DNA of 38,755 bases from assembly GCA_947459195.1 (NCBI GenBank), contig CANHCS010000012.1, forward strand, positions 1 through 38,755, read 5' to 3'. This document shows positions 3,289-38,732 of this stretch, one piece after another. The DNA is from Sphingobacteriaceae bacterium. GTDB taxonomy: Bacteria; Bacteroidota; Bacteroidia; Sphingobacteriales; Sphingobacteriaceae. The notes beneath the pieces were generated by a model, which saw only the letters and a list, made by a program, of their open reading frames with translations, did not search any database and was not told the origin of the DNA. The translations under genes and the position numbers were made by a program. How positions within the stretch are numbered: the first letter of the stretch is position 1; every line of letters starts with the position of its first letter.

Positions 3289-5685
3289 TTAAACGGTATA
3301 CTTCCTTTTACGGTACCAATGTTGAAAAAATCCAAAAATTGCTAACAATATCAAGGGCAACAGGATATTAAAAGCCTGCCAGAAAAATTTTTCGTTTTGA
3401 ATTTTCGCCCGATCGAGCATGCGCAATTTGTATTCCTTATTTCTAAGTGCAATCAATTCGGCATCATTCAATAAATAATCCACAGCATTCAGCAAGAATG
3501 CTTTATTGCCATAAACCTGCTGCGTAAAGCGGTCATAGCCCAGGGGGTAAGGAGCTCCGTCCTGATCCTGCTGATTTTTTAGTAGATCACCGTCGGCTAC
3601 AACCAATAGTTTTCCCGACTTTATGCCAGCATTCAACTTAAAATCTGGATCCAAGCCTTCAGGAAGTAGCCGGTTTTTAAAAACAGAATTGAATTCTCCT
3701 TCCAATAAAACTGCAAAAGGCTTACTATTTCCCTTGAAACTTGCCGGATCAGGACTCTCTTCCAGCATTTGTAATGAAACCATGGCAGGCAAATCCATTG
3801 TTTTATTGTAGGGCGAGGAGCTCAACAAAATGGTTTTTTTGACGCCTTTTACTGCCAGCGTATCAATGCTACCAGCAAATTCGGCACGTATGCCTTCCAG
3901 GTTTTTCACCATTGGATGATCAGTATTGGGCATGATCACCGGATAAAATAACCATGGTAATAACTGTACTTGAGTTGCTCCCCCAAAATCGCCCACATTT
4001 AACGGAATCTGCGCACAATTCATATCGGCGAGCAAATGGTAATTTAATCGGACGCCATATTTGAACAGTAGATCATCTAAATTGAGTTTGTTCGCAGTAG
4101 CCAGTTGAGTCCCATTCTCTCTTAAACTATCTAAATTTGCATTGGATTGATCGATGGCCATCAAAAGCCGACCACCCTGCCTGATAAAATGATCTAGCTT
4201 GAACTTTTCCAGTTCAGAAAAAGCCTGCAAAGGTTTTGCAATGACCAATATTGAAATTTGATCTAAACCAGGACGGCTAATTTGTTGAAGATCTACCCGA
4301 CCGACCGTAAAACCAGTTTCCAGTGAACTCATCGCATCGCTCAACTCTACACCATTCAGCTCTCCATGGCCTTCTGTAAACCCGATTCTTGGTTTTTCAG
4401 ATTTTAACAATTGGTTAATGGCACTGATAAAGGCATATTCCAAATTTTCTATGGATTGATTCAACACTGTCGCTGGCGAGGCTCCCATTCTCGACTGCAA
4501 TAAATCCACCACTATTTTTTTACCTTGATATGCCAGCTGCGCTTTGGGAAAAATAAGTTTCTGAGTGACCCCCTCTTCAGTTTTTACACTCAAATTGGTT
4601 GGCTGAATGCCCTGCTCATACAAGAGCTGCAAAGTTTTTTCACGCTCTAAGGCATTTCCTTCATTCGGATTGATGAAAGAAACTTGAATCGGCTGCTCGG
4701 CTTCAACTTCCAAGTCTTTCAATAAATCGCGACTGGCTTGGCTCAATTGCCGGAAACCTGGAGGCAGCTCACCACTCAAATAAATATTCACCTGGAGAGG
4801 GTCCTGTAATTTGCGAACTGCATTTATGGAAGTCTCAGACAAAGAGTAGCGCTTTTCTGCCGTGAGATCATACCTCAAAGGCCGAATTGAGCTTGTTAAA
4901 TGAAAAGTGATAAAAGCAAGAATGAAAAGTTTAAACTTTTTATTGAATTTAACTGCAACAGGTAAACGTTTATCCAACTGATAGCTGGCTAAAAGCAAGA
5001 AAACCAGAATGATGTCCAGAAAATAAAATACATCATTGCTTAGCAATACCCCGCGACTCATCGATTGGTAATGGCGCTGCATGCCTAAATCCTGGAGAAT
5101 ATTTGTTACTTCATTGAACAAGGGCCAGTTACTGAGTAAATCGAAACCTACGAATAAGCAAAAAGCCAATCCGGCTGTGAGCAAAAATGCACTCACTTGA
5201 TTTTTGGTGATGGAAGAAGCAAAAATGCCGATGGCAGCCCATGTTGCAGCAATCAAAAACAAGCCAAGATAGGCACCAAACGTACCCCCAAAGTCTAAAT
5301 TGCCCTTCTCTGCCCCCAGTTGATCAATTGTAAAAACATAAAATAAAGTTGGCAGCAGACTAAGTAAACAGATAAAACATACAGCCAGGTATTTCGCTCC
5401 AATAATTTCAAAAACACTCAGGGGCTGTGTGCGTAATAATTCATCTGTGCCATCTTTGCGTTCTTCTGCGAGGGAACGCATACTGATAGCAGGAATCAAG
5501 AATAGAAAGAGGTAGGGTGCCAGTTCAAAAAAAGTTTGCATACTGGCATAGCCGGCCACTAAAAGGCTGTAATCGGGAAAAATCCAGAGTAAAATACCCA
5601 AAATCGACAAGAAAAGGCCAATGCTAATAAAGGCAATTTGTGAGCTAAAAGAGGTAGCTAATTCTTTTTTGAGTAGGGCAAACAC
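3289..5685 (-). CDS. gldFG: GldF-GldG fusion: gliding-associated ABC transporter permease plus auxiliary/substrate-binding subunit
   Basis: One 798-residue protein joins two proteins that are separate in Flavobacterium. Residues 1 to about 245 resemble the GldF permease: roughly six membrane segments and the conserved MRSLAEERKDGTDELLRTQP segment after the second. From about 248 the GldG part begins with a new membrane segment and RPLRYDLTAEKRYSLSETS, followed by a large extracytoplasmic ABC-auxiliary region (for example RIGFTEGHGEL). A last membrane helix and a basic tail close the protein. The combined length matches GldF plus GldG with nothing missing. The start is GTG at 5685-5683; no ATG precedes it before an in-frame stop, and the next Met is residue 49. 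The likely ATPase partner, GldA, is encoded at 7276-7983. Confidence 0.9.
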   Translation of the reverse strand: MFALLKKELATSFSSQIAFISIGLFLSILGILLWIFPDYSLLVAGYASMQTFFELAPYLFLFLIPAISMRSLAEERKDGTDELLRTQPLSVFEIIGAKYLAVCFICLLSLLPTLFYVFTIDQLGAEKGNLDFGGTFGAYLGLFLIAATWAAIGIFASSITKNQVSAFLLTAGLAFCLFVGFDLLSNWPLFNEVTNILQDLGMQRHYQSMSRGVLLSNDVFYFLDIILVFLLLASYQLDKRLPVAVKFNKKFKLFILAFITFHLTSSIRPLRYDLTAEKRYSLSETSINAVRKLQDPLQVNIYLSGELPPGFRQLSQASRDLLKDLEVEAEQPIQVSFINPNEGNALEREKTLQLLYEQGIQPTNLSVKTEEGVTQKLIFPKAQLAYQGKKIVVDLLQSRMGASPATVLNQSIENLEYAFISAINQLLKSEKPRIGFTEGHGELNGVELSDAMSSLETGFTVGRVDLQQISRPGLDQISILVIAKPLQAFSELEKFKLDHFIRQGGRLLMAIDQSNANLDSLRENGTQLATANKLNLDDLLFKYGVRLNYHLLADMNCAQIPLNVGDFGGATQVQLLPWLFYPVIMPNTDHPMVKNLEGIRAEFAGSIDTLAVKGVKKTILLSSSPYNKTMDLPAMVSLQMLEESPDPASFKGNSKPFAVLLEGEFNSVFKNRLLPEGLDPDFKLNAGIKSGKLLVVADGDLLKNQQDQDGAPYPLGYDRFTQQVYGNKAFLLNAVDYLLNDAELIALRNKEYKLRMLDRAKIQNEKFFWQAFNILLPLILLAIFGFFQHWYRKRKYTV

Positions 5686-24449: not shown

Positions 24450-26347
24450 TGAACCCATTCTTTGCCAGAAAATATGTCATTCAGGGAATATTCATCACCG
24501 CTGCCATTTTCATTATCATTCGCTTATTTTACCTGCAAGTTATCAATGACGAATACCTCCTTTCGGCCAACAATAACGTTTTACGGAAGATCATCATTTA
24601 CCCGGCCAGAGGAATTATCTTAGATCGGGAAAACCGGATTTTGGTTCAAAATGAGCCTGTTTATGACTTAATGGTGATTCCCAGAGAGGTGAAACCTTTT
24701 GATACACTCGAATTCTGCAATCTATTGGGCATCACCAAAGAGCGTTTCGACAAACAATTCAAAAAAGCGAAGAACCATTCCATCTACCGGGCTTCGGTAT
24801 TGGAGAAACAACTATCGGCCAAAGTTTTTGCTGGCTTTCAGGAGAAATTATACTTATTCCCCGGTTTTTATGTCCAGAACCGCTCGGTGAGGTATTATCC
24901 TGATAGCATTGCCGCCCAGTTCTTAGGCTACATTGGCGAAGTGAATGAGCGAATGATAGAAAAATCGAATGGTTTTTATGCTAAGGGCGATTATATTGGC
25001 ATCAGCGGGATAGAACGCTCTTATGAAGACCTGCTGAGAGGTCAGCGAGGCGTACAGAATTTAATGGTCGATGCCTTTAGCCGCCCCAAAGGTCATTTTG
25101 CGGATGGGAAATATGATACACTGGCTGTTTCGGGCGAGGGTTTGCAATCTTCCTTAGACAGAGATCTGCAAAAATTAGGGGAAGAGCTGATGGCTCATAA
25201 AATTGGGAGCATTGTAGCCATTGAACCCGCAAGTGGCGAAATCCTCGCTTTTGTGAGCAGCCCTACCTATAACCCCAATTTGATGGTTGGCCGGCAAAGG
25301 GGCAATAACTATATGAAATTGCTCAACAATCCTTATAAGCCCATGTTCATCAGACCTATACAGGCAGAATATCCACCGGGCTCTATATTCAAGATCGTAA
25401 ACGCTCTGGTTGCTCAGCAGTTTGGCTCCATCACACCCAGTACTACTTATACTTGCGGCGGTGGTTATCGCTACGGCAACCGGGTAATGGGCTGTACCCA
25501 CGTACACGGGCCAACAGACCTCACGCAATCTATCCAATATTCTTGTAATACTTATTACGGACATATCTTCAATAGGATGATTGACCATTCGGGGATGCGA
25601 TCTATTGATGGATATAAAAGATGGCAAGCAGCTGTGGCCAAATTCGGTATAGGTTCCAAGCTCAACATCGATCTACCCAACGAACGAAAAGGCTTATTAC
25701 CCAGCGCCGATTATTATACCAAACGCTGGGGTAGCGACAAATGGGGATCGAGCTTTAATATTTCTCTTTCCATTGGTCAGGGAGAATTAGGAATTACGCC
25801 ATTGCAAATGGCAAATACCATGGCCATTGTGGCCAACCGTGGTTTCTACTATAAACCACACCTCATTAAGGCCATTGGTTCAAAAAAGGTAATCAGAAGA
25901 GAATTCACTAAAAAAATAGAGGTAGGTATCGCTCAGCAATATTTTGGTTCAGTAATTGAAGGGATGAGCAGAGTGGTGAACCAGCCAGGCGGAACAGCTT
26001 ATTATTCTAAAATTCCGGGGATTGAAATGTGTGGCAAAACAGGTACGGTACAAAACCCTCATGGTGCAGATCACTCTGTATTTGTGGCCTTCGCTCCTAG
26101 AGAAAATCCGAAAATTGCCATTGCTGTGGTTGTTGAAAATGCAGGCTTCGGTGCTACCTGGTCGGCGCCTATTGCCAGTTTAATGGTAGAAAAATATTTA
26201 CGTGATTCCATCAGTAGACCAGCTGTATACAAAGAACGAATCACACAGGCCAGTTTATTGCCGGCCATCAAGCAAAAATTAAATCCGAAAACACCTGTTA
26301 AAAAAGATTCGGCTAAAACAGCAAATAAAACTGTGTCCAGACCTTAG
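24449..26347 (+). CDS. mrdA: Penicillin-binding protein 2 (peptidoglycan D,D-transpeptidase)
   Basis: Class B PBP that cross-links new peptidoglycan during elongation, working with RodA. It has 632 residues, with one N-terminal membrane helix (about 10-28), a pedestal domain containing YPARGIILDRENRIL and a C-terminal transpeptidase domain. Active-site motifs are S312-x-x-K315 (GSIFK), S365-C-N367 and K530-T-G (CGKTGT). The C-terminal tail after about residue 600 is Lys/Pro-rich and probably disordered. It is coupled to mreD upstream, and rodA starts 8 bases downstream. Confidence 0.95.
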   Translation: MNPFFARKYVIQGIFITAAIFIIIRLFYLQVINDEYLLSANNNVLRKIIIYPARGIILDRENRILVQNEPVYDLMVIPREVKPFDTLEFCNLLGITKERFDKQFKKAKNHSIYRASVLEKQLSAKVFAGFQEKLYLFPGFYVQNRSVRYYPDSIAAQFLGYIGEVNERMIEKSNGFYAKGDYIGISGIERSYEDLLRGQRGVQNLMVDAFSRPKGHFADGKYDTLAVSGEGLQSSLDRDLQKLGEELMAHKIGSIVAIEPASGEILAFVSSPTYNPNLMVGRQRGNNYMKLLNNPYKPMFIRPIQAEYPPGSIFKIVNALVAQQFGSITPSTTYTCGGGYRYGNRVMGCTHVHGPTDLTQSIQYSCNTYYGHIFNRMIDHSGMRSIDGYKRWQAAVAKFGIGSKLNIDLPNERKGLLPSADYYTKRWGSDKWGSSFNISLSIGQGELGITPLQMANTMAIVANRGFYYKPHLIKAIGSKKVIRREFTKKIEVGIAQQYFGSVIEGMSRVVNQPGGTAYYSKIPGIEMCGKTGTVQNPHGADHSVFVAFAPRENPKIAIAVVVENAGFGATWSAPIASLMVEKYLRDSISRPAVYKERITQASLLPAIKQKLNPKTPVKKDSAKTANKTVSRP

Positions 26348-26355
26348 TAAACTCC

Positions 26356-27621
26356 ATGACCAATATCAGACCCAGAAATATCTTTTTTAATGTAGACCGG
26401 GTAAGTCTTTACTTGTTTTTGGCTTTATGCATCATTGGCTGGATCAATATTTATGCAGCCGTTTACGACCCCGAAAACGCCAATGCCTTTAACCTGGGAA
26501 CGAACTACGGAAAGCAGTTCATCTTCATCATCTCTGCCTGCATGCTGGGAACATTGATCTTACTCCTGGATGTAAAACTATTTAGCACTTTGAGCCCTTT
26601 ATTTTATGGGATCAGTTTATTGTTATTGGTAGCTGTATTGGTGGTGGGCAGGAATGTGGGGGGAAACCAGGCTTGGATACCCATAGGTAGTTTCAGACTT
26701 CAACCTTCAGAATTTGCCAAATTTTCTACCTGCCTGCTACTGGCGCAATACATTTCTACCACCAACTTTAAAACCAAATCATGGTTTTCAGTAGGCCTTG
26801 CCGGCTTAATTATTGTATTGCCGGTAGCTTTGATCATGCTGCAACCCGATACTGGTTCGGCACTTACCTTCCTTTCCTTAATTTTTGTATTGTACAGAGA
26901 AGGGCTCTCCGGGTATTTTTTAGTGATTGGGGCCGTAGCAATTGTCTTATTTCTACTTACTTTATTACTCAGTAAAGTGCTGCTTATTGCTCTACTGGTA
27001 TTGGTTGCCGGAATATTGCTTTACCAACTGAGAAGAAAGAAACAATGGATAAGCCCAATTATTTTAGGAACGATCTGTTCAATTTTCTATATTTTTTCGG
27101 TAGACTTTACCTATAAAAATATCCTTCAACCCCACCAAAGAACCCGTATTGATGTTTTGCTCGGTAAAGTTGAAGACCTCAGAGGGCAAGGTTATAATGT
27201 AAATCAATCTAAAATCGCGATCGGTTCGGGACGCATATTTGGCAAAGGATTTTTGCAGGGTACACAAACCAAGTACGATTTTGTACCGGAGCAGAGTACC
27301 GATTTTATTTTTTGTACCGTAGGCGAAGAATGGGGATTTGTAGGCAGTTTGGTGGTGGTGGGTTTGTATCTTTTCCTCTTGATGCGGATCATCTTTATCG
27401 CCGAAAGGCAAAGATCCTCTTTCTCCAGGATATATGGCTATGGCGTGGCTTCCATCCTATTTGTGCATTTCTTCATCAACATCGGCATGACCATCGGACT
27501 AGTTCCGGTCATCGGTATTCCGCTGCCTTTTGTAAGTTATGGTGGATCCTCTCTTTGGGGATTTACGCTCTTGCTATTTATCCTGCTTCGGCTGGATGCG
27601 AACCGGATGGGAATTATTTAG
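26356..27621 (+). CDS. rodA: Rod shape-determining protein RodA (SEDS glycosyltransferase)
   Basis: SEDS-family peptidoglycan polymerase that partners PBP2. It has 421 residues and about ten membrane helices. Recognisable segments are QAWIPIGSFRLQPSEFAKF, LIMLQPDTGSALTFL and, near the end, GMTIGLVPVIGIPLPFVSYGG, the SEDS signature. The extracytoplasmic loop includes a long stretch around YNVNQSKIAIGSGRIFGKGF and FVPEQSTDFIF. The protein is slightly longer than E. coli RodA (370), with an extra hydrophobic segment near 195-230. Its stop overlaps the 3' end of the convergent gene by 8 bases. Confidence 0.95.
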   Translation: MTNIRPRNIFFNVDRVSLYLFLALCIIGWINIYAAVYDPENANAFNLGTNYGKQFIFIISACMLGTLILLLDVKLFSTLSPLFYGISLLLLVAVLVVGRNVGGNQAWIPIGSFRLQPSEFAKFSTCLLLAQYISTTNFKTKSWFSVGLAGLIIVLPVALIMLQPDTGSALTFLSLIFVLYREGLSGYFLVIGAVAIVLFLLTLLLSKVLLIALLVLVAGILLYQLRRKKQWISPIILGTICSIFYIFSVDFTYKNILQPHQRTRIDVLLGKVEDLRGQGYNVNQSKIAIGSGRIFGKGFLQGTQTKYDFVPEQSTDFIFCTVGEEWGFVGSLVVVGLYLFLLMRIIFIAERQRSSFSRIYGYGVASILFVHFFINIGMTIGLVPVIGIPLPFVSYGGSSLWGFTLLLFILLRLDANRMGII

Positions 27622-28252
27622 CAAACTTTCTACGCATCAAATCATAGAATTTTTCCGCGGTAGCCGACTTCTCTGTCCAATTGTAGGCTTCCACATAATG
27701 AGTTTTAAGATATTGATCTGCGCTTTCAAAATCTTCTAAACGCTCGAGCTGATCTATTGCTTCCTGATAGGCCAAACTATACCCGTTGAACAAATCTTTC
27801 ACAAATACCAGTTTATCATTCAGACTGATGCTGCGTTTCAAATCCTGGATAGGCTCCTGACTAAACTTAGCGGCCAAGTTCTGTTCAGTGCGATTTGCCA
27901 TTAAATCATTCCTGCTGGGCACTAACTGTGGATTAGCTGGCTCCGTAACATCAGCGGCTGATTCCAGACTAACTGGTGAAGATATTGCTGGCTCGATTGG
28001 CGGTTCGTAATTATCTACATCCTGAACGAAATTTTCCTCCGGTTCGTCGACAGCAATTGGAGTGGAAATAGCAGCATCTTCGTGATTAAATTTTTGTAGG
28101 ATCTGAATATGATCAGCCAAAAACTTAGCATTTGCAGCAAAAAGTTCTGTTTCTAATCGATCTGAGCGATCACTTTGAGCTAAATGTTCATATTGCTCAT
28201 TGATATCAGCAATAATTTCACCAATTCTTTCCAGTATAGCCTTGCGGTCCAT
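27614..28252 (-). CDS. Hypothetical protein with acidic disordered linker
   Basis: I do not recognise a named family. I place the start at the ATG at 28252 ([14 protein letters not shown]), giving 212 residues. The frame could begin 42 bases earlier, but that would add a short basic hydrophobic stretch and run closer to the divergent tdk. An N-terminal helical part (1-65) is followed by a Pro/Glu/Val-rich acidic linker (about 66-130) and a compact helical C-terminus starting near [20 protein letters not shown]. That last part looks conserved and may bind a partner. The layout suggests a cytoplasmic two-domain protein. It converges with rodA (8-base overlap) and diverges from tdk. Confidence 0.65.
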
Positions 28253-28344
28253 CAAAAAACGCTTTATTGAGTAGATTACTTTCAAAAATAGCATTAAATT
28301 CTGATATTAGCCGGGCCTTAATCATCGCATCATACATCGAGAAA

Positions 28345-28923
28345 ATGCTCTACAACGAACATAAATATAAACGAAAACAAGAACCAGGGGGAAGCATTGA
28401 AGTGATCTGCGGATCGATGTTTTCGGGAAAAACTGAAGAGCTTATTCGCCGATTGAAGCGAGCGAAGATCGCTCAACTGAACGTAGAGATTTTTAAGCCT
28501 CAGACCGATGTGCGTTACGATGACTCGGACGTGGTTTCACACGATGCCAATTCCATTCCCTCTACCCCTGTCGAAAACTCTTCGGCCATACTTTTATTAG
28601 GTACCAATACCCAGGTGGTAGGTATTGACGAAGCCCAGTTCTTCGACATGGAATTACCTGCAGTTTGCACCCAATTAGCCAACAGAGGTATCCGAGTAAT
28701 TGTAGCCGGGTTAGATATGGATTTTCAAGGCAAGCCTTTTGGCCCCATGCCTGCACTAATGGCCATTGCCGAAGACGTAAGCAAAGTACACGCCATTTGT
28801 CTGCAATGCGGTGCACCGGCCAACCACTCCTATCGTACCGTGGCTAGTGAGCATACCATTCTATTAGGAGAAAAGGAGAGTTACGAACCTCGTTGTCGCG
28901 ATTGCTTTAATGCAAATAGCTAA
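28345..28923 (+). CDS. tdk: Thymidine kinase
   Basis: Salvage enzyme phosphorylating thymidine (type II, TK1-like). I choose the ATG at 28345 (192 residues). The longer frame from a TTG at 28267 adds 26 residues unlike the family and would crowd the divergent gene. The P-loop is GSMFSGKT at 23-30, the Mg/lid region has [10 protein letters not shown], and [15 protein letters not shown] follows. Two cysteine pairs (CLQC and CRDC) form the structural zinc site. It ends 2 bases before the convergent amidotransferase stop. Confidence 0.95.
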
Positions 28924-28925
28924 TC

Positions 28926-29495
28926 TTATTGTTTCAGCCAGTTCCGCATGATCTGCTCCCCACAGGGGCTCAATACGCTCTCCGGATGAAACTGAACACC
29001 TTGCAGGTCAAAATGTTGATGTTGCATGGCCATGATGTAACCACGTTCATCTCGTGCGGTCACGCTCAATTCAGCCGGTAAATTTTCATCAGCTACCACC
29101 CAGCTATGGTAACGACCCACTTCAAAAGTATCAGCCAACCCACTAAAAATAGGACTGCTATTAGATGTTTTAGAAATAGGAGTGGCAATACCATGATGCA
29201 CTTCCTCCAAATTAATTAAAATGCCACCCAAGGCTTGTGCAATGGCCTGGTGACCCAAGCAAACCCCCAGAATAGATTTAGAGTCTGCGTAAGCTTGAAT
29301 AAGTGGGATGAGCAAACCCGCCTCCTCAGGTATTCCAGGGCCGGGAGAAAGGATGATTTTATCGTAAGCTTTAATGTCCTCCAGATCGAGCTGATCATTC
29401 CGTACCACCTCCACCTTTTCATTCGTAATCATTTCGACCAAATGAACCAGGTTGTAAGTAAAGGAATCGTAATTATCGAAAATTAAAATCTTCAT
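28926..29495 (-). CDS. Anthranilate / aminodeoxychorismate synthase glutamine amidotransferase subunit
   Basis: Class I glutamine amidotransferase that supplies ammonia to a chorismate-using partner (TrpE or PabB). I start at the ATG at 29495 (MKILIFDNYDSFTYN), giving 189 residues, the usual length; a longer frame upstream is not family-like. The catalytic triad is C79 (GVCLGHQ), H170 and E172 (QFHPES). No trpE, pabB or other trp gene is adjacent, so it could serve folate synthesis, tryptophan synthesis or both. TrpG versus PabA cannot be settled from this window. Confidence 0.92.
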   Translation of the reverse strand: MKILIFDNYDSFTYNLVHLVEMITNEKVEVVRNDQLDLEDIKAYDKIILSPGPGIPEEAGLLIPLIQAYADSKSILGVCLGHQAIAQALGGILINLEEVHHGIATPISKTSNSSPIFSGLADTFEVGRYHSWVVADENLPAELSVTARDERGYIMAMQHQHFDLQGVQFHPESVLSPCGEQIMRNWLKQ

Positions 29496-29536
29496 GAATA
29501 AAAGCACTTTCTGAGAGAAAGAAGGCGTAAATATAC

Positions 29537-29570
29537 AAAGAAAGCAGCCCGAACAGGGGCTGCTTTCTTT
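29537..29570 (-). terminator. Terminator of the adhesin-porP unit
   Basis: Perfect 14-bp arms (29537-29550 and 29557-29570) with a 6-base loop, ending in TTTCTTT on the minus strand. It lies about 80 bases past the stop of the PorP/SprF-like gene. Its position upstream of the amidotransferase ATG would insulate that gene. Confidence 0.8.
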
Positions 29571-29651
29571 AATGTAATCTAGGTGGATAAAAATGCTGAT
29601 GAATAACAATAATATTGGACCTCAATAAGCCACAACATTGCAGTATTCAAT

Positions 29652-30542
29652 TTATAATTTAAGCCTGGCTTTACTCAAATGAATTTGCAAAGCCACTTCA
29701 AATACACCGTTTGCAGCATTGCTGATTGGGTTTGCAGTGGTATTGTAAAAGCCCGTGATCTCCCACTTCTCCTGATGCAGGTAGCTTAAGCCAAAGGTGG
29801 CACTTTTGTTAGTATGGTATATACCGGTGAAGCCTAACTTATCATTATTGGTCTTGAATTCCATTCCCATATCCACAATATTGGTATAGTTTCTTACTCC
29901 ACGATAAGCAATCTTGGTATTCAGCTTCCAATTTTCCATCGGGAATTTATAACCTACTGCTGAATAAAAGGTATTAAAGTCAGCAAAGTTATCGTCGTCT
30001 TTGCTGATCTGATCCAATACATTATAAACTGCAAACTCCATAGATAAGCGCTCACTGGTATAAGCCATCCCGAAATCGCCATCAAACTGGGTGCCTCGGT
30101 CATTGAAAGCAATCACTGATGGATCGTTAACATTACCTACTAAACCTTGCATATCATAACTGCCTGCTTGTGCACCCACATTCAAGCCAAAATGGATTTG
30201 GCGGCCGTAGTCGCTAATGGGTAAATGAAAGGCCATAGCTCCCGACACCCGGGTTTGGTTGATGTCGCCTTCTCTGTTATTATATACCCTGGCGCCAAAG
30301 CCTATCCTGTTGCTTTGTACATCGTACATGATGTGTTGCATGCGGGGTGAACCTGGTACATTGCTCCACTGGTTACGGTAACCTACGTTCAAGCGGGCAC
30401 CTTCGCTAAAGCCCGCCATCGCAGGGTTGGCGATATAGCCATTCCCAAAGAACATGGCATCGAATGGGTTGATCTGCGCCATGGCATTGCTTGCAAACAT
30501 GAATAGGCTAATGAATGCGGCCTTGATGATATTTCTTTTCAT
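29652..30542 (-). CDS. PorP/SprF family type IX secretion outer-membrane protein
   Basis: 296 residues with a signal peptide ending near NAMA-Q. The diagnostic PorP/SprF start follows: INPFDAMFFGNGYIANPAMAGF, then NVGYRNQWSNVPGSPR. Alternating beta strands through the rest suggest an outer-membrane barrel of about 14 strands. In gliding Bacteroidota, SprF is needed to bring the adhesin SprB to the surface, and PorP-type proteins are often encoded next to type B CTD adhesins. Here it lies 38 bases downstream of such an adhesin on the same strand, so its likely client is that protein. Confidence 0.93.
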   Translation of the reverse strand: MKRNIIKAAFISLFMFASNAMAQINPFDAMFFGNGYIANPAMAGFSEGARLNVGYRNQWSNVPGSPRMQHIMYDVQSNRIGFGARVYNNREGDINQTRVSGAMAFHLPISDYGRQIHFGLNVGAQAGSYDMQGLVGNVNDPSVIAFNDRGTQFDGDFGMAYTSERLSMEFAVYNVLDQISKDDDNFADFNTFYSAVGYKFPMENWKLNTKIAYRGVRNYTNIVDMGMEFKTNNDKLGFTGIYHTNKSATFGLSYLHQEKWEITGFYNTTANPISNAANGVFEVALQIHLSKARLKL

Positions 30543-30580
30543 TATTTATTTATTATAGATGTAATCCAATTGATAGTGTT

Positions 30581-33500
30581 TTAATCTCTGATGATGGTAA
30601 TGTATCCCTTCTTAATTTTCTTGCCGGAACCGAAATTGATCACGTAGTAATAAGTTCCTTCAGCCAATAAATTGGAGTTGATGGTTCCATCCCAGTTGTT
30701 CTGGTAATTTTTAACCTGATAAAGTATACGTCCGGCTTTGTCAAAGATTTGAACTTCATTATCAGGGTAAGAATCCAGATTATCTATCACCCAATAATCA
30801 TTGATACCGTCACCGTTTGGAGTAATGATATTAGTAGGAGTCACGTTATAGTCTTCCACTACGTTTACAGTAACATACAGAACAGTGGTTAAGCCTGCAG
30901 CATTGGTCACAGTTACCGTGTAGACGGTAGTTTGTGAAGGGCTTGCAATCGGGTTGGCCACATTCGTAGCACTCAATCCAATACTTGGGCTCCAAGAGTA
31001 AGTTACTAAACCAGGGCCAGCTACATTGAGTTGTGAGCTGTAACCTTTACTAATGGTTACATCATTACTTGAAGCCGTAATCTGATTGGTACCTGGCAAG
31101 TTACCGGTGCCTGAAGCAACTGGCGATTCGATGATGCTAATGGTAAAGGTTTTTTCAAAAGTCAAGCCTCCGGCATCGGTAGTTCTAATGCGGATGCTAT
31201 AGCTCTCCTTGTCTTTAAACTTGAATACCACCGCTGCTTTCAATTGGTTATTTACAATACTAAAGCTACTGTTGTCTGTGCTACCGGCTCCGCTCACCAA
31301 AGTATAAGTATGGGTATCGCCTGCATCCGGATCGGTAGAGGTTAAATTACTTACAGTAGCATTAGCTGCATTGTTCTCATAAATGGCTAATTGTGTTGAA
31401 TTGATATTGGTAGGTGCTTCGTTCAAATTACTTACCGTTACAGTAAATACTTTCTCGAAGCTCAAGCCGCCCGCATCGGTAGTTTTCACACGAATACTAT
31501 AAGATGATTTTGCTTCGAAGTTTAAAGCACTGCTCACTCTCAAGCTGTTTCCGCTGATGTTGAACGCTGCATTATCGGTGCTACCTGTACCACTTACCAA
31601 GGTGTAAGTATGGGTATCGCCTGCATCTGCATCCGTACTGCTCATTGTACCAACCGTAGCATTCGCTGCATTGTTCTCGGCAATGGTATTTGCACTGAGC
31701 GCAATGTCGCTTGGGGCTTCATTCACATTGTTTACCGTTACAGTAAATACTTTCTCGAAGCTCAAGCCGCCCGCATCGGTAGTTCTCACACGAATACTGT
31801 AAGATGATTTGGTCTCAAAGTCTAATACATTGTTTACTCTGAGGCTGTTTCCGCTGATATTGAACGCTGCATTATCGGTGCTTCCTGTACCACTTACCAA
31901 AGTATAAGTGTGCGTATCGCCGGCATCTGCATCGGTACTGCTCATTGTGCCAACTGTAGCATTCGCCGCATTGTTCTCAGCAATGCTGGTAGCACTTAGG
32001 GTAATATCTGTTGGAGCAGTATTGAAAATTAAGGTAATGGTAGCCGTAGCACTACCGCCCGAATTGGTCGCAGTAATGGTATAAACCTGAGAGCCTGTTT
32101 GTGCAGTAGTCGAAGTACCCGATACCACACCGGTAGTAGCATTGATACTAATTCCTGATGGTAATGACGGTGCAATTGTATAAGTGATTACTGCACCACC
32201 ACCCACTGTGGGTACCATGTTGGTAATGGCAGTACCCTGACGTACGGTTTGCGTGTTTGGATTATAAACCAAATTCAACGGCGGCGCATCATTTTTCACT
32301 TCTAAACTCAAGGTGTAGGTACTGGTACAACCAGCAGCCGTACTGGCCGTAACAACATAGTCTGCAGTTGCGGCCAAAGCAGTAGGTCTTCCACTAATCA
32401 CACCGGTAGCTGTATTGAGTGTTAAACCGGTAGGCAAAGCAGGTGAAACGCTGTAAGAACTTGGCGTTGGAGATCCTGCACCTAGAACTGGTGATAAGTT
32501 GATAATGGTATTGTTTCTGATAAATGAATACGTAGCTGCCGCATAGCTGATGCTTGGCAAGCTGCTTACGGTTACCGTACTTGCTTCTGAAACAGTAGTG
32601 ATCCCATTGGTCACCGTTTCAACCTTATAACTGCCCGCTTCGGCAACCCTCAAGGTTTGTTGAGTAGCACCGGCGATGGCCACATTATTTTTGAACCACT
32701 GATAGGTGTTTGCCAAAGATGCTTCCAGTACTACATCCGATCCTTGACAAAGATTCAAAGAGGCTGCATTATTATTGGTTCCGGCTTGCGGTGTAATGGA
32801 GGCTTGTTTGGTATAGCAATAATTGGTGATTTCTACTTGTTGCAAATTCACTGAACCACCAGTTGCAGCTGTTAATCCCCAAAACACATACTCAGCATTA
32901 TTGAAAATAGTGGCTTTCAAATCAACTGTGATGTCGAATCGTTTTACTCCATCGTACCATGCCTGGAAGTTTTTGGTATTGGCGGTCCACACAAAGCGTA
33001 CATTATGCCACTGTCCGTCTTCCATTTGAACTTCATACGGTGTAGCGTAGGTATTGTGAGCTCCAGCAGCAGCACCATTGGCAATAATGGCCATGTGATC
33101 CTGAACAGGCTCAAAAGATCCATTGTACCAGGTATCAAACTCTACCGCGAAAGAAGGGGTGATACCTTGGTACCCTAATCCTCCACCAGATGAACCGGCA
33201 TTGATGGATTGGTTCTGCAATACAAAGGCGATACCGTCTGCTCCATTCGCATCATTGGTTCCCAAATTAATTCTCGAGCTGATGTCAAAGTCTTTATCCA
33301 AAAAGATCTTGTTCACATTCCAGGCACCTCCACGCTGAGTATTGGTAGCTGTAGTCAAGGTAATGATGTTGTTACTTACTGTTGCATTACCGTTCAATCT
33401 AAAATCTGACGGCAAGAAGGTACTGCAATTCGGGTCGTTTACCGTAACCGTAAAGGTACTGGTTGCCGTACGGCCAGTTCCATCATTCACCGTTAAGGTA

Positions 33501-36346
33501 ATGGTTGCTGTACCAGTCTGACCACTTGCTGCGGTAACTACAACATTCCGGTTAGCTCCGCTTCCGCCAAGTACAATATTTGAATTAGGAATTAAAGTAG
33601 TATTACTTGAAGTGGCTGTAACCGTTAAACTGGCCGCTGCGGTCTCGGTATCTCCTACCGTAAAGTTTTGTGCAGTGGTTGGCGTTACACCACTGGTGGT
33701 TTGGTTAACTAATGAGGTAATGGTTGGTGGCGTATTGGCATAAGTAGCAGAAGCTGTTCCTGAACCAATACTATTTACTGCTCTAAGTTTAATACTGAAA
33801 TTCGTGTTTGAAATACCCGGAATCACAACAGGTGAAGAGGTCGATGCCGGAGACAACGTGATCCAGGTAGTTCCACCGTCAGTACTGTATTCGTAATTGG
33901 TTATGGCAGATCCTCCATTAGAGCTTGGTGCTGTGAAATTAACACTAGCACTTCCGTTAGCCACACTAACCGAAGTAATTGTAGGAGCCGATGGCGTTGT
34001 AGCCGTTGCTGCACCATAACCTATAGAAGTAGTAATGTTATCCACTTCGAAACCACCGCCACCAAATTCTAATCGGGTAAAATAAATGTCTGGGTTATCT
34101 AATTGCAGGTTAATGTAAGCAAAGGGTTCATTTGCAGCATTTGCACGTCTGTAAAGTGATGAATTATACTGGTTACCGTCTACAGCGGTTACTGTATTTT
34201 GGTTGAGTAAATTAATTACGGTTGAGGTAGTAAACTGAGCCAGCTGGATTTCATTTCCGCCGCATGTCCCATAAATGGTAACAGTATTGGCGTTATCACC
34301 TGCCCCCCACCAAAAACCAACATATCTTGAAGGATCAGTAAGATTTATACTAACAATAGAATTTAAGTATATCGCCAAGAAATTAGTACCTGTACCACCC
34401 CAAACCGAAGTTGGAAGAACTTGTAAGGTACCCACATTGTTTTTGGTATATGAACCAATGGCAAAATTACCTGTAGTCAAATTTACACCGGTACTCATAG
34501 AATTGAATGTCTCAGTTCTTGAGCCTACTTGACCTTCAATAGCCGAATTGGTAACATTAGGCGCTGATAGCTTGAACTGTACATTAGGCAGTGTAGTAGG
34601 GCAAGGTAGTATGGTAGCCGTTACCAAAGTACGAGTTGTACTCAAACAACCCGAACTGGTATTTCGGGTTTCCACATAATAATTAGTATTGGCAGAAATT
34701 ACCGGTGTGGTAAAAGTAGTTACACCACTACCGCCAGATAATACTGTTCCGCCCGTTTCGGTGGCATACCAGTCTGCGGTAGTGCCAGCTGGAACGGATA
34801 CAACCAGGTTAACTGTCCCTGCCCCTGTTCTAGTCCCCTGCGAAACTACCGTAGGTGCTACAGGGGTTTGACCGGCAGAACAATTGGCAACATAGGTAGT
34901 ACTTGCAATGTAAAAGTCTGTAAATGCTTGATCATCAGGATTGGTCCAAGTACCGTATTCAATTACATAGCCCTGAACACCAGAAGTATTACCATTGTTT
35001 AAATCATTCCATTTAGTACCGCCGTTCCACTTGGTTACTGCGTGGTCCTCACCCTGTGTCGAGAATGAATTGTTAGGCTCTCCAGTATCCCAGTTGGTAT
35101 AAAACCCGTTTTGCGCACTACCGCTGGAGCCATAAGTGCTGGTGTTACTGTTGGTGATGCCACTTGCAGAGGTTTGCCAAATCACTCTTCCCTCCTCAGG
35201 TCCATCATCAATATACCATCTTCCTTCAGAATTGGCATCAGACAATGCGAACCAAATATCTGTTGCAGTGGTATTAGAATTTATAAAATCTTGTTCTATT
35301 GCAGAAGTAATGGTAGCCAAATACCCCGCTTGACCTTTAAAAGTGGATGCTCTAGCTGCAGTTTTTGCATTAGCATAGGTAATACCACTAGAACTAATTG
35401 GTCTATAATAGTGTCCATTAACCGGGTTAAAATTATAACCAGATGTATTTACAGTGGCAGAAACAGAAATATTGATATTACCGGCATTAGAGCCGGTTGA
35501 TACACTCATGGAAGCCAGGGCAGCATTGATATCAGTTTGTGTTCCGGTAAAACTGATCCGCGTTAATCCGGTCCAGCTGGTATAGCCTGTCGAACGAGTT
35601 AATCCAGAGGTTACCGATAAATTGAAGGTGGTACCTGCTGGCGGATTTACCAAACCAATAGAACATAATAGCGTACCATTTGGAAATCTAACTAAAGAAA
35701 AATCTCCTGGGTCTTGATTTGCTGTACTCAGATTAAAATTTCTTGGACTGGGTGCAATCACTCTTGGTATTGCATCTATGTAGCCATTCAGTAATGCTAC
35801 ATCAATATTAGCCGCATTACCCGATTCAGATCCACCCGTGGCTTGTAACGTGTATGTTGAATTATTGAGCTTAAATCCAAAATTCGAATTACCATTTGCA
35901 GTACCGCCTTGTATGGTATAATTAGGCCCACCATAGGTATTCAAATTAACCGAAACACTTGAATTTGCCACAAAACCGAGCAATTCGTTTGTGTTTCCAG
36001 AATTAATTCGCCATACCAGAGCACCGGGTAAATCAACTTTACTACCATTGTTCAATTGTAACCTAAGCGTACCCGGAATATCATTCCCTTGATTTTCAAA
36101 ACGTCCGGAAGCTGTTCGTTGTACAAAATAAGCCCTTGAAATGGTTAGTGTTGAAAAACGTTGAATGCTATTAGCCTGTTGTGTATTTTGACCAATTAAT
36201 CCGATAAATCCATCATCAAAAGGAACACTTACTTCAATGGTTTGTTGGGCATGTAAACTCACAGGTAACTGTAAGGCAGCGACAAAAAGAAGTAAGAATG
36301 CCGAGAATTTAAAAGTAATGTTTTTGATAAGCTTGAATAGATGCAT
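30581..36346 (-). CDS. Giant multidomain lectin/cadherin surface protein with type B T9SS sorting domain
   Basis: 1921 residues, predicted to be secreted by the type IX system and surface-attached. A signal peptide (about 1-33, ending LHA-QQ) comes first. Domains read in order, approximate by eye: N-terminal beta region (34-300); C-type-lectin-like domain (about 308-467; WFALSDANSEGRWYIDDG, NWDTGEPNN); Ig-like (486-578); unnamed beta region; FN3-like (784-870); tandem Ig-like (871-970); L-type (legume-like) lectin domain (971-1182; NDANGADGIAFVLQNQ); Ig/PKD-like (1183-1260); two putative-Ig repeats (1260-1440); three 100-residue cadherin-like repeats (1441-1740); PKD-like (1740-1835); and a gliding-type CTD with TPNGDGINDYWVIDNLD near 1842, ending KKIKKGYITIIRD. 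The porP-like gene follows. It is probably an SprB-like adhesin binding glycans. The exact ligand is unknown, and I found no enzymatic domain. Confidence 0.92.
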   Translation of the reverse strand: MHLFKLIKNITFKFSAFLLLFVAALQLPVSLHAQQTIEVSVPFDDGFIGLIGQNTQQANSIQRFSTLTISRAYFVQRTASGRFENQGNDIPGTLRLQLNNGSKVDLPGALVWRINSGNTNELLGFVANSSVSVNLNTYGGPNYTIQGGTANGNSNFGFKLNNSTYTLQATGGSESGNAANIDVALLNGYIDAIPRVIAPSPRNFNLSTANQDPGDFSLVRFPNGTLLCSIGLVNPPAGTTFNLSVTSGLTRSTGYTSWTGLTRISFTGTQTDINAALASMSVSTGSNAGNINISVSATVNTSGYNFNPVNGHYYRPISSSGITYANAKTAARASTFKGQAGYLATITSAIEQDFINSNTTATDIWFALSDANSEGRWYIDDGPEEGRVIWQTSASGITNSNTSTYGSSGSAQNGFYTNWDTGEPNNSFSTQGEDHAVTKWNGGTKWNDLNNGNTSGVQGYVIEYGTWTNPDDQAFTDFYIASTTYVANCSAGQTPVAPTVVSQGTRTGAGTVNLVVSVPAGTTADWYATETGGTVLSGGSGVTTFTTPVISANTNYYVETRNTSSGCLSTTRTLVTATILPCPTTLPNVQFKLSAPNVTNSAIEGQVGSRTETFNSMSTGVNLTTGNFAIGSYTKNNVGTLQVLPTSVWGGTGTNFLAIYLNSIVSINLTDPSRYVGFWWGAGDNANTVTIYGTCGGNEIQLAQFTTSTVINLLNQNTVTAVDGNQYNSSLYRRANAANEPFAYINLQLDNPDIYFTRLEFGGGGFEVDNITTSIGYGAATATTPSAPTITSVSVANGSASVNFTAPSSNGGSAITNYEYSTDGGTTWITLSPASTSSPVVIPGISNTNFSIKLRAVNSIGSGTASATYANTPPTITSLVNQTTSGVTPTTAQNFTVGDTETAAASLTVTATSSNTTLIPNSNIVLGGSGANRNVVVTAASGQTGTATITLTVNDGTGRTATSTFTVTVNDPNCSTFLPSDFRLNGNATVSNNIITLTTATNTQRGGAWNVNKIFLDKDFDISSRINLGTNDANGADGIAFVLQNQSINAGSSGGGLGYQGITPSFAVEFDTWYNGSFEPVQDHMAIIANGAAAGAHNTYATPYEVQMEDGQWHNVRFVWTANTKNFQAWYDGVKRFDITVDLKATIFNNAEYVFWGLTAATGGSVNLQQVEITNYCYTKQASITPQAGTNNNAASLNLCQGSDVVLEASLANTYQWFKNNVAIAGATQQTLRVAEAGSYKVETVTNGITTVSEASTVTVSSLPSISYAAATYSFIRNNTIINLSPVLGAGSPTPSSYSVSPALPTGLTLNTATGVISGRPTALAATADYVVTASTAAGCTSTYTLSLEVKNDAPPLNLVYNPNTQTVRQGTAITNMVPTVGGGAVITYTIAPSLPSGISINATTGVVSGTSTTAQTGSQVYTITATNSGGSATATITLIFNTAPTDITLSATSIAENNAANATVGTMSSTDADAGDTHTYTLVSGTGSTDNAAFNISGNSLRVNNVLDFETKSSYSIRVRTTDAGGLSFEKVFTVTVNNVNEAPSDIALSANTIAENNAANATVGTMSSTDADAGDTHTYTLVSGTGSTDNAAFNISGNSLRVSSALNFEAKSSYSIRVKTTDAGGLSFEKVFTVTVSNLNEAPTNINSTQLAIYENNAANATVSNLTSTDPDAGDTHTYTLVSGAGSTDNSSFSIVNNQLKAAVVFKFKDKESYSIRIRTTDAGGLTFEKTFTISIIESPVASGTGNLPGTNQITASSNDVTISKGYSSQLNVAGPGLVTYSWSPSIGLSATNVANPIASPSQTTVYTVTVTNAAGLTTVLYVTVNVVEDYNVTPTNIITPNGDGINDYWVIDNLDSYPDNEVQIFDKAGRILYQVKNYQNNWDGTINSNLLAEGTYYYVINFGSGKKIKKGYITIIRD
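31126..32025 (-). repeat. Three tandem 300-base repeats encoding cadherin-like domains
   Basis: Units 31726-32025, 31426-31725 and 31126-31425 share an exact 300-base period. The first two are close at DNA level: in 31441-31680 against 31741-31980 I count about 26 differences in 240 bases. The third is more diverged. Each encodes about 100 residues with the pattern SIAENNAANATV, DADAGDTHTYTLVSG and SIRVRTTDAGGLSFEK, the acidic residues being typical calcium sites of cadherin-like folds. Confidence 0.85.
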
Positions 36347-36630
36347 GCTGTGGAGAATTTTAATAAATTTTGTAATAACCTACAATTATCGTAAAATTCA
36401 AGGTATTAAAACTATTTTCGGTACGTGAAAATGGTACAGATTTCAAAAAACAGGACTGTTACAAAACACTTAATGATTAACTTTTAAGTTATATAAATGC
36501 ACATTTTAGAAAACAACAGCTGCAGAATTGCATATAATTTTACTTTAATTTTCTGTACCAGAATTAGTGTATATTTGACCATATTTATGATGATAGATCA
36601 TATCTTTATAAATCAGTATTTTTGAACTAG
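36347..36630. promoter_or_regulatory. AT-rich divergent intergenic region with candidate -7 elements
   Basis: 284 bases between the leftward adhesin and the rightward AraC-type regulator, strongly AT-rich, with no gene visible. TATTTTTG at 36617-36624 ends 6 bases before the regulator ATG (36631), and TATATTTG at 36570-36577 is a second match; either could serve the regulator. No convincing -33/-7 pair was found for the adhesin on the minus strand. Confidence 0.4.
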
Positions 36631-37833
36631 ATGTTCCTGTTCATACCTATACTCACGGTATTTATTTCCATCATTCTGCTAATATTCAACTGGCGGATCA
36701 ACAAGAATGCCAGCTACCTTTCGCTGATATTCATTATTCTTGCGAGTTACGGTATTACCCATTATTTCACCTTGTATGGTCAATCCGAATTTTGGCTGGC
36801 CATTTTTTACACTCATTTCTCTGCATTCTGGTTATTACCGGGCCCATTCCTCTACTTTTATGTAAGAGGCACCCTCAGCGATGAGCAAGGACTGAGCTGG
36901 AGAGACAGCTGGCACTTTGTACCAGCCCTCGTCCATCTCATCGGCATTTTACCTTATCTCATTCAACCTTTTAGCTACAAGTTAGAGGTGGCGCAGAGTA
37001 TTCTCCTTAATATGGATGCCCTGAAAACCATCAAAGTAAGTTGGCTCTACCCCAGTACGGTCAGTTATTTTATGCGAACGGGTTTATTAATTGCTTATGC
37101 AGTGTACACCACTAAAATGTTGTGGGATTATAAACCCACACAAAAAGAAATGCGTCAAATACCACAGGAGCAATACCAAATTACCTTAAAGTACCTCGTA
37201 CTACTCCATGCTTGTATCCTCATTGCGACTTTGGGTTTTCTGTTTATCACTTTTGTATTCTCCAATACCAAAGTGAGCAGCGAAGTAATGAGTGCCATGC
37301 CTGTGCACTATGTGAGTGGTATTGCCTTTTTACTGATGTCGGGCGGTTTGTTGTTTTTCCCCGAAGTGTTATATGGGATGCCCGTGAATCGCACTAGGCC
37401 GCTACCAAACAGGGGCAAAAAGAATGAAAAAGTCCTCAAATCAAAAGAAAAACAAGCGGAAGAAGCAACAGCAATTGAGGAAGATCCTTTTAAAGAGCTG
37501 GCCGAACAAATTTTAAAGCACCTGGAAAAGAAAAAACCTTACTTGCACCCTAACTTCTCCTTGAGTGATTTGGCACAGGCGCTCAAAGTACCTCAACACC
37601 ACGTGTCTTATTGTTTCAATGCCATTATTAAAACAAAATTCACCGACCTCAAAACCCAGCTCCGAGTGGCCCATGCCAAAGCATTACTCCAAAAAGGCGC
37701 TTCTAACGAGCTTTCCATTGATGGGATCGGCAGAGAATCGGGCTTTGCCTCCCGCTCTAACTTTTACAGCGCCTTTAAAGCCGAAACCGGACTTACCCCC
37801 AACGAGTTTTTAGCACAATCAGCTCGGCAGTAG
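36631..37833 (+). CDS. Membrane-anchored AraC-family transcriptional regulator
   Basis: 400 residues. Residues 1 to about 250 hold around seven hydrophobic helices. A Lys/Glu-rich linker (about 255-285) follows, and an AraC-type DNA-binding domain occupies about 300-397 (two helix-turn-helix motifs: FSLSDLAQALKVPQHHVSYC and IDGIGRESGFASRSNFYSAF, then LTPNEFL). Such multi-helix AraC proteins are common in Bacteroidota and probably sense something in or at the membrane; the ligand is unknown. It is transcribed away from the giant adhesin, so it may control that gene, but this is inference from position. Confidence 0.87.
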   Translation: MFLFIPILTVFISIILLIFNWRINKNASYLSLIFIILASYGITHYFTLYGQSEFWLAIFYTHFSAFWLLPGPFLYFYVRGTLSDEQGLSWRDSWHFVPALVHLIGILPYLIQPFSYKLEVAQSILLNMDALKTIKVSWLYPSTVSYFMRTGLLIAYAVYTTKMLWDYKPTQKEMRQIPQEQYQITLKYLVLLHACILIATLGFLFITFVFSNTKVSSEVMSAMPVHYVSGIAFLLMSGGLLFFPEVLYGMPVNRTRPLPNRGKKNEKVLKSKEKQAEEATAIEEDPFKELAEQILKHLEKKKPYLHPNFSLSDLAQALKVPQHHVSYCFNAIIKTKFTDLKTQLRVAHAKALLQKGASNELSIDGIGRESGFASRSNFYSAFKAETGLTPNEFLAQSARQ

Positions 37834-37866
37834 CGCATTGCTGTAAATGGCTCCCCTCCTACCAAA

Positions 37867-37886
37867 AAGCCTCCTCTTTTAGGCTT
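37867..37886 (+). terminator. Weak candidate terminator after the AraC-type gene
   Basis: 6-bp arms AAGCCT / AGGCTT with an 8-base loop, followed by GTTTC. It lies 34 bases past the regulator stop. The stem is short and the T-tract poor. Confidence 0.3.
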
Positions 37887-37979
37887 GTTTCATCCATTTT
37901 GATGGGCCTTGCAATAAATTTTGTGTTCAGCAGTTTTTTAAGGTGTAAATCTTTATTGTTCAACCTAAAATTAAACATG

Positions 37980-38732
37980 ATGAGCAAAACTTATGAAACC
38001 GGCCATGCCAAAAACCTGGCCAACTTTAACAGCCTGATCAGCTTTTGTGAAGGCTATGGCAGTGCTTATAATCCGGCGGCACTTGCCTTACAATTGAGCA
38101 GCCTACAAACACAGGCTGTCGATGCCCAAAGTGCCTATGAGGAGGCCAAGAAAAAACAGCTGGCCTTTAACAAGGTGGTAGACGAACGCATGATTGCCTT
38201 CGCTCCACTCAGGTCCTTATCGCAAAGAATGTTGGCTGCGCTGGCCGCTAGTGGCTGTAGCAGCGAAACCCTGGAGGGCGCCAAAACCATCAACCGTAAA
38301 ATTCAAGGCCGGCGAAAGAAAAATATAGCGGCCGAGGTGAGCGAGCCTACAGATGATCCAACGGAGGGAAACAAACCAGCAAAAAGCATTTCAGCCTCTC
38401 AACAGAGTTATGATAACCTCAGCGCCAGTTTCAGTGCTTTTATAGAACTGCTGGTGGGGCAGATCGAATACCAGCCCAATGAAACCGAACTGCAAACTAC
38501 TTCCTTATCCAGCTACCTCGAAACCCTCAAAGCTGCCAATAAAGCTGTTATAGATGTCTACACCCTTTGGAGTAATACCCGAATTAATCGCAACAAAGTG
38601 ATGTATGCCAAAGGAACCGGCATGGTAGATATTGCCCAACTGGTAAAAAATTATGTAAAATCGGTGTTTGGCAATGGCAGCCCCGAGTACAAACAAGTGA
38701 GTCCACTTGAAATCAAGAAAGTCCCCAAATAA
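37980..38732 (+). CDS. Unrecognised all-helical protein with internal duplication
   Basis: No named family recognised. The frame is open from 37899, but MSKTYETGHAKNLANF from the second of two adjacent ATGs (37977, 37980) looks like the natural start; the earlier stretch is hydrophobic and unlike the rest. From 37980 it has 250 residues, with no signal peptide or membrane helix, and composition suggesting long helices. Two halves appear related. YNPAALALQLSSL begins the first, and YQPNETELQTTSL begins the second. Each continues with an Ala-rich helix, an Asn/Arg patch (NKVVDERM / NTRINRNKVM) and an amphipathic helix. A basic-acidic linker (GRRKKN to GNKPAKS) separates them. It lies about 145 bases after the AraC-type gene, and 23 bases follow to the window edge. 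Confidence 0.7.
   Translation: MSKTYETGHAKNLANFNSLISFCEGYGSAYNPAALALQLSSLQTQAVDAQSAYEEAKKKQLAFNKVVDERMIAFAPLRSLSQRMLAALAASGCSSETLEGAKTINRKIQGRRKKNIAAEVSEPTDDPTEGNKPAKSISASQQSYDNLSASFSAFIELLVGQIEYQPNETELQTTSLSSYLETLKAANKAVIDVYTLWSNTRINRNKVMYAKGTGMVDIAQLVKNYVKSVFGNGSPEYKQVSPLEIKKVPK

Follow-up and report, generated by a model that had tools for sequence, protein, structure and literature searches.

Gene organization of the locus

The window, that is, the whole stretch of 38,755 nucleotides that was analysed, belongs to the genome (G000) of a small-genome Bacteroidota bacterium. It carries a large adhesin gene, a porP gene downstream on the same strand, and a divergent araC gene. The genes, the noncoding features, and the part of the locus that is absent from the sister genome G005, the closest relative, are as follows:

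30581-36346, reverse strand: adhesin gene, 1,921 aa, T9SS type B CTD protein (open reading frame and domains)
29652-30542, reverse strand: porP, 296 aa, PorP/SprF-family shuttle and anchor, no cysteine (open reading frame and domain matches)
36631-37833, forward strand: araC, membrane-bound AraC-type regulator, divergent from the adhesin gene (open reading frame and domain matches)
36440-36457, reverse strand: candidate operator half (AGTCCTGTTTTTTGAAAT) in the divergent promoter region (motif comparison)
29571-29536, reverse strand: intrinsic terminator with a 15-pair stem, between porP and trpG, closing the adhesin-porP operon
29575-37887, edges approximate, no strand: cassette extent absent from G005 (comparison with G005)

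The open reading frames lie exactly where the original prediction had placed them. It had also described porP as starting 38 bases after the adhesin gene and being followed by a 14-bp terminator, and the 38-bp gap and the terminator were both found, the stem of the latter having 15 pairs. PorP was assigned to the PorP/SprF family by TIGR03519 (147 bits; cut-off, 90.6). The AraC-type protein has a hydrophobic N-terminal half with about five segments and a C-terminal HTH_18 domain. The cassette is surrounded in the window by trpG, tdk, rodA, and a DUF6261-like gene.

Domain architecture of the adhesin

Searches with Pfam, NCBIfam, and PDB gave the adhesin the order probable signal peptide, N-terminal region, C-type lectin, Ig_7, NF050191, FN3-like, and Big_9-like, and the order continued (Pfam and NCBIfam) with L-type lectin, Ig/He_PIG, three cadherin-like repeats, and the type B CTD. 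The mapped modules, all on the reverse strand, are the following:

36248-36346, residues 1-33: probable Sec signal peptide (...SLHAQ/Q), read from sequence
35441-36247, residues 34-302: N-terminal beta-rich region (phmmer, 341 bits to L024)
34949-35440, residues 303-466: C-type-lectin-like domain (alignment, profile, and predicted structure)
34604-34864, residues 495-581: Ig_7 domain (Pfam)
34031-34552, residues 599-772: NF050191 (Npun_F0296) surface domain (82 bits; cut-off, 29)
33743-34009, residues about 780-868: FN3-like module (PDB search matches NCAM FN3 modules; fn3 in homologues)
32825-33412, residues 979-1174: L-type (legume-like) lectin domain (Pfam, and PDB single-sequence and profile searches)
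31112-32269: stalk, consisting of He_PIG (residues 1360-1439) and three cadherin-like repeats (residues 1453-1745) (domain and PDB searches)
30593-30835, residues 1838-1918: type B T9SS C-terminal domain, CHU_C/TIGR04131 (domain searches)

The type B CTD was clear with both models (CHU_C, 90.3 bits against a cut-off of 27; TIGR04131, 72 against 35), and the DNA of the stalk contains a tandem array with a period of 300 at 31278-31985. The Big_9 match at residues 871-968 reached 19.9 bits, which is under its cut-off of 23.6. Thus, the FN3/Ig modules, the three cadherin-like repeats, and the type B CTD that had been expected were all recovered by the Pfam, NCBIfam, and PDB searches. The region of residues 34 to 302 has a single other carrier, the homologous protein L024, and its structure model is of low confidence. 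The NCBIfam model NF050191 (exosortase-dependent surface proteins) matches a domain common to the window adhesin, L024, L025, and L098, and this domain may be a third recognition module. It is strongly conserved among the cassette adhesins (59 to 66% identity). The predicted fold of residues 586 to 775 was rejected as too weak to use (pLDDT, 49).

The C-type domain scored 22.3 bits with Lectin_C at residues 338-396 in Pfam, just short of the cut-off of 22.6, and for this reason it was put to three further tests. First, an alignment of eleven homologous stretches contained the calcium-site residues E423, N425, E433, N447, and D448 (EPN...E...WND), so that by sequence the domain has a mannose-type site (E423-P-N425, E433, and W-N447-D448). 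Second, a PDB search with the profile of the eleven sequences returned structures of mannose-binding proteins, CD23, and the mannose receptor, with E values of 1e-13 to 1e-17. Third, the predicted structure of residues 24 to 480 had pLDDT values mostly of 84 to 97 across the C-type domain and matched solved C-type lectins with Z scores of 16 to 18 and an rmsd of about 2 Å over about 125 residues, the CTLD fold being supported by a Z score of 18.2 and an rmsd of 1.9 over 127 residues. A chance match was rejected because the profile and the fold both support the domain. EPN is the mannose-type motif of the family, and sugar specificity in bacteria is not safely readable from it.

The L-type domain was matched by Lectin_L-type (PF18483) at 173 bits (cut-off, 78). 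The nearest solved protein is the legume lectin 7elv, with an E value of 1.8e-29 by single sequence and 1e-51 by profile, and the profile also reaches SraP of Staphylococcus aureus, plant lectins, and ERGIC-53 in the PDB. In addition to the legume-lectin fold, the domain has likely metal-site residues (E1069, D1071, N1075, D1083, and H1084) and a likely sugar-site residue, D1037 (GADG), all of them conserved. The original prediction had placed a C-type-lectin-like domain at about residues 308-467 and an L-type lectin at about 971-1182, and it had staked both on structure prediction. The predicted structure shows the first fold, PF18483 and 7elv identify the second, and a single surface protein is thereby confirmed to carry two lectins of unrelated fold. 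From these residues, both lectins are predicted to bind glycans.

Distribution of the two-lectin combination

Of 201 genomes of the family, 3 encode an L-type lectin above the curated cut-off; five relatives from the same genus have none. At the level of the phylum, samples of 395 genomes contained 23 with a match to the C-type profile (E ≤ 1e-15) and 28 with one to the L-type profile (E ≤ 1e-20). Among 33 L-type-matching and 20 C-type-matching reading frames, many cut by locus ends and some redundant, both folds occurred only in the window protein and L024. The combination is therefore rare but not unique, because L024 carries both folds. L024 (MAG GWA2_35_26) is up to 57% identical to the window adhesin over the N-terminal two thirds and shares with it the N-terminal region, the C-type lectin, NF050191, the L-type lectin, and cadherin, but its contig stops before the CTD and its upstream side (the recA side) has no AraC gene. 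L025 keeps the L-type lectin, NF050191, the stalk, the CTD, AraC, and PorP and has no C-type lectin; L042 has the C-type lectin, the CTD, and PorP and no L-type lectin. Bacterial proteins that combine C-type with L-type lectins were also sought in the literature, and nothing relevant came up. The same kind of C-type lectin was also seen in alphaproteobacterial, Micavibrio, and other Pseudomonadota proteins (L028, L030, L032, L033, and L034), and it was combined with cadherin repeats in all four that were scanned with Pfam (L028, L030, L032, and L033).

The cassette in related genomes

G005 lacks all 8.3 kb from porP through the adhesin gene to araC, and the absence is clean. The sequences corresponding to window positions 24993-29565 and 37888-38727 adjoin there with about 30 bp between them, and the neighbouring proteins (rodA and tdk) are up to 96 to 98% identical to those of the window. 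The empty site lies in L128 (G005:C13) at 4574-4608, and its junction has no repeats. Transposon carriage was considered and rejected, as the junctions share no repeats and the GC content is the same as that of the flanks. At the same place by trpG, genome G003 has porP and a 457-aa adhesin remnant that lacks the N-terminal part, without AraC. This remnant (L058, G003:C9, 3398-5706) is an N-terminally truncated adhesin, and its porP looks intact. Because the position is common to G000 and G003, the comparison suggests loss of the cassette in G005 rather than gain in G000. The cassette is probably dispensable.

AraC is divergent from a cadherin-bearing adhesin in all four close homologues (L025, L057, L098, and the window). 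By identity, AraC of the window is closest to those of G001 and G107 (42 to 44%). PorP follows the adhesin in the AraC-bearing relatives (G001, G107, and L025) wherever the contig continues. The adhesins of these three keep the stalk modules and differ at the N terminus, where the tips are IPT-like (G001), RCC1-like (G107), and another beta domain (L025), IPT and RCC1 being read from sequence. Linkage of AraC with the adhesin is common but not universal, since the homologues L024 and L026 have no adjacent AraC. The proposal that AraC completes a three-gene module is supported by these data, as the empty site removes all three genes and the four AraC homologues share the divergent arrangement. 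The adhesin-porP linkage is likewise present in relatives, including L025 and L042.

The G001 cassette (L057, G001:C9, 8-8781) has the AraC-adhesin-PorP order without lectins and lies beside a probable GH16 gene and a gene for a GH3-type beta-glucosidase. This neighbourhood, read from sequence, would fit a polysaccharide-use capture protein, with lectins that keep polysaccharides of algae or plants close to the enzymes degrading them, instead of a cell adhesin, and bacterial lectin modules often act as binding modules. However, no glycosidase or SusCD lies beside the window cassette, and the G001 homologue that adjoins such enzymes has neither lectin. We therefore regard a capture protein as unlikely and cell adhesion as the better reading.

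Candidate operator in the divergent promoter region

A palindrome, AGTCCT-N13-AGGACT (spacer T/A-rich, about 13), is common to the four divergent intergenic regions; the copies of L025 and L098 are clean, those of the window and L057 degenerate. Its best joint match exceeded those of 200 of 200 dinucleotide-preserving shuffles, with both strands allowed. Within the window, the palindrome occurs once at two or fewer mismatches, in the adhesin-araC spacer. It is treated as a candidate operator because it was found after looking. Through this site, AraC would regulate the adhesin-porP operon.

Secretion, PorP, and gliding

The host has a T9SS, as SprA, GldK-L-M, and PorV are encoded, with the SprA translocon elsewhere in the genome. 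In F. johnsoniae and Porphyromonas gingivalis, experiments identified PorP/SprF proteins as specific shuttles and anchors of type B proteins and not as the pore (PMC9143113, PMC12618676). In a non-random sample, 38 of 57 CHU_C frames are directly followed by PorP, and the pairing of type B CTD proteins with PorP was already known, as the original prediction had said. The neighbouring PorP had been proposed there as exporter or anchor. The cognate pairs of those experiments support the role of anchor or shuttle, and the term exporter should be replaced, as the SprA translocon is encoded elsewhere. On the evidence of its signal peptide and CTD, the adhesin would be secreted via the T9SS. A PorE-like gene, which would supply the static anchor to the wall that is proposed, was not found in the adhesin-porP operon, a point against the static reading.

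In F. johnsoniae, a disulfide formed by the Cys-X-Cys motif in the periplasmic tail of SprF links this protein to GldK, which belongs to the moving track, as does GldJ (PMC12635249). The window PorP lacks the SprF-type tail, as the protein contains no cysteine anywhere. In addition, the GldJ model found only a GldK-type protein in G000 and G005 and gave strong matches in four other same-genus genomes. The gene order in G003 (L093, G003:C1) is SusC-SusD-gldJ-porV-ispF, and in G000 (L118, G000:C57, 5705-5896) it is SusC-SusD-porV-ispF on one contig, with 190 bp from SusD to porV. The assembly is 93.5% complete, and an assembly gap behind the missing gldJ was rejected at this locus because the contig is contiguous with both neighbours. 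Relocation of gldJ to the 6.5% that the assembly lacks is possible. A supposed lack of GldB was also rejected, as its gene was found in two parts at two contig ends, and GldB is among the gliding genes that remain in the host.

The missing gldJ and the cysteine-free PorP make classical gliding in this host unlikely and the adhesin probably static. The label of a gliding-type adhesin in the original prediction was thus not borne out. An SprB-kind gliding adhesin, with its PorP/SprF partner carrying it on the moving track, would account for the gene order, which is the same as that of sprB-sprF, and for the T9SS motor genes and GldB of the host, and F. johnsoniae type B substrates are moved by the gliding machinery also without a PorE neighbour (PMC12618676). 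Against this stand the lack of gldJ, both at the syntenic locus, which is contiguous, and in the rest of the assembly, the same GldK-type-only result in the sister G005, and the PorP without the tail, and we consider such an adhesin quite unlikely.

Proposed function of the cassette

The most probable explanation is a regulated, dispensable cassette for a calcium-dependent glycan adhesin that leaves the cell through the T9SS and is kept in a fixed position by its own PorP. The membrane-bound AraC-type protein would sense a signal and control the divergent adhesin-porP operon via the palindromic site. The adhesin would enter the periplasm by Sec and exit through the SprA translocon by its type B CTD, and the co-encoded PorP barrel would collect and hold it. 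The cadherin/Ig stalk would then present two calcium-dependent lectins of unrelated fold to cell-surface or particle glycans, so that in this host the product would most likely be a static attachment device and not a gliding adhesin. Type II antifreeze proteins are ice binders of C-type lectin fold, the herring protein is among the structural neighbours of the C-type domain, and CTLD folds often bind no sugar. Still, it seems improbable that one or both folds are scaffolds blind to sugar or have protein or ice as their ligand, as the EPN-E-WND set is complete and diverged homologues conserve it together with the metal and sugar residues of the L-type domain.

The secretion and anchor pair is of a known kind; what is unusual is the two-lectin tip, in a cassette that differs among close relatives. 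In SprB-SprF of Flavobacterium johnsoniae, too, one operon encodes a large adhesin with a type B CTD and, after it, the PorP/SprF partner; the window differs from it in the PorP without a Cys-X-Cys tail, the host without gldJ, the lectin tip, and the divergent AraC. PG1035-PorP-PorE of P. gingivalis is also a PorP-anchored type B CTD protein in a nongliding T9SS host, but PG1035 is about 50 kDa with no lectin domains in its published description, and the window operon has no PorE gene. SraP of S. aureus (PDB 4m00/4m01) is an L-type lectin adhesin on a cadherin-like stalk (PMC4047093), but it is a Gram-positive surface protein with no C-type lectin and a sialic acid ligand. F. johnsoniae RemA is a surface lectin secreted by the T9SS, but it has a type A CTD and another kind of lectin domain and is a mobile gliding adhesin.

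More tentatively, the locus could represent a cassette family, in which a membrane AraC sensor, a common palindromic operator, an adhesin with a swappable tip on a conserved stalk, and a dedicated PorP are gained and lost as a unit across Bacteroidota families, and whose link with gliding was severed in a streamlined aquatic lineage once gldJ had been lost; we regard this wider scheme as possible but doubtful. The case bears on the rule by which some type B CTD/PorP pairs go to the gliding track while others end up at static sites. Here, a T9SS host has no gldJ and yet retains a type B adhesin with a PorP devoid of the track-binding cysteines, which makes it a natural test of this rule, and the sister species without the cassette offers a close comparison for surface attachment. 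Both lectin domains are small and foldable and are suited to glycan arrays.

Two other observations were made on the secretion genes of G000. Next to a collagen-like repeat protein lies its other clear type B CTD/PorP pair (L059, G000:C37, 4053-7821), in which the CTD protein has 183 aa. At G000:C5:12449-13510, a PorV-like paralogue is interrupted by one internal TAA stop, and an apparently intact paralogue is on C44.
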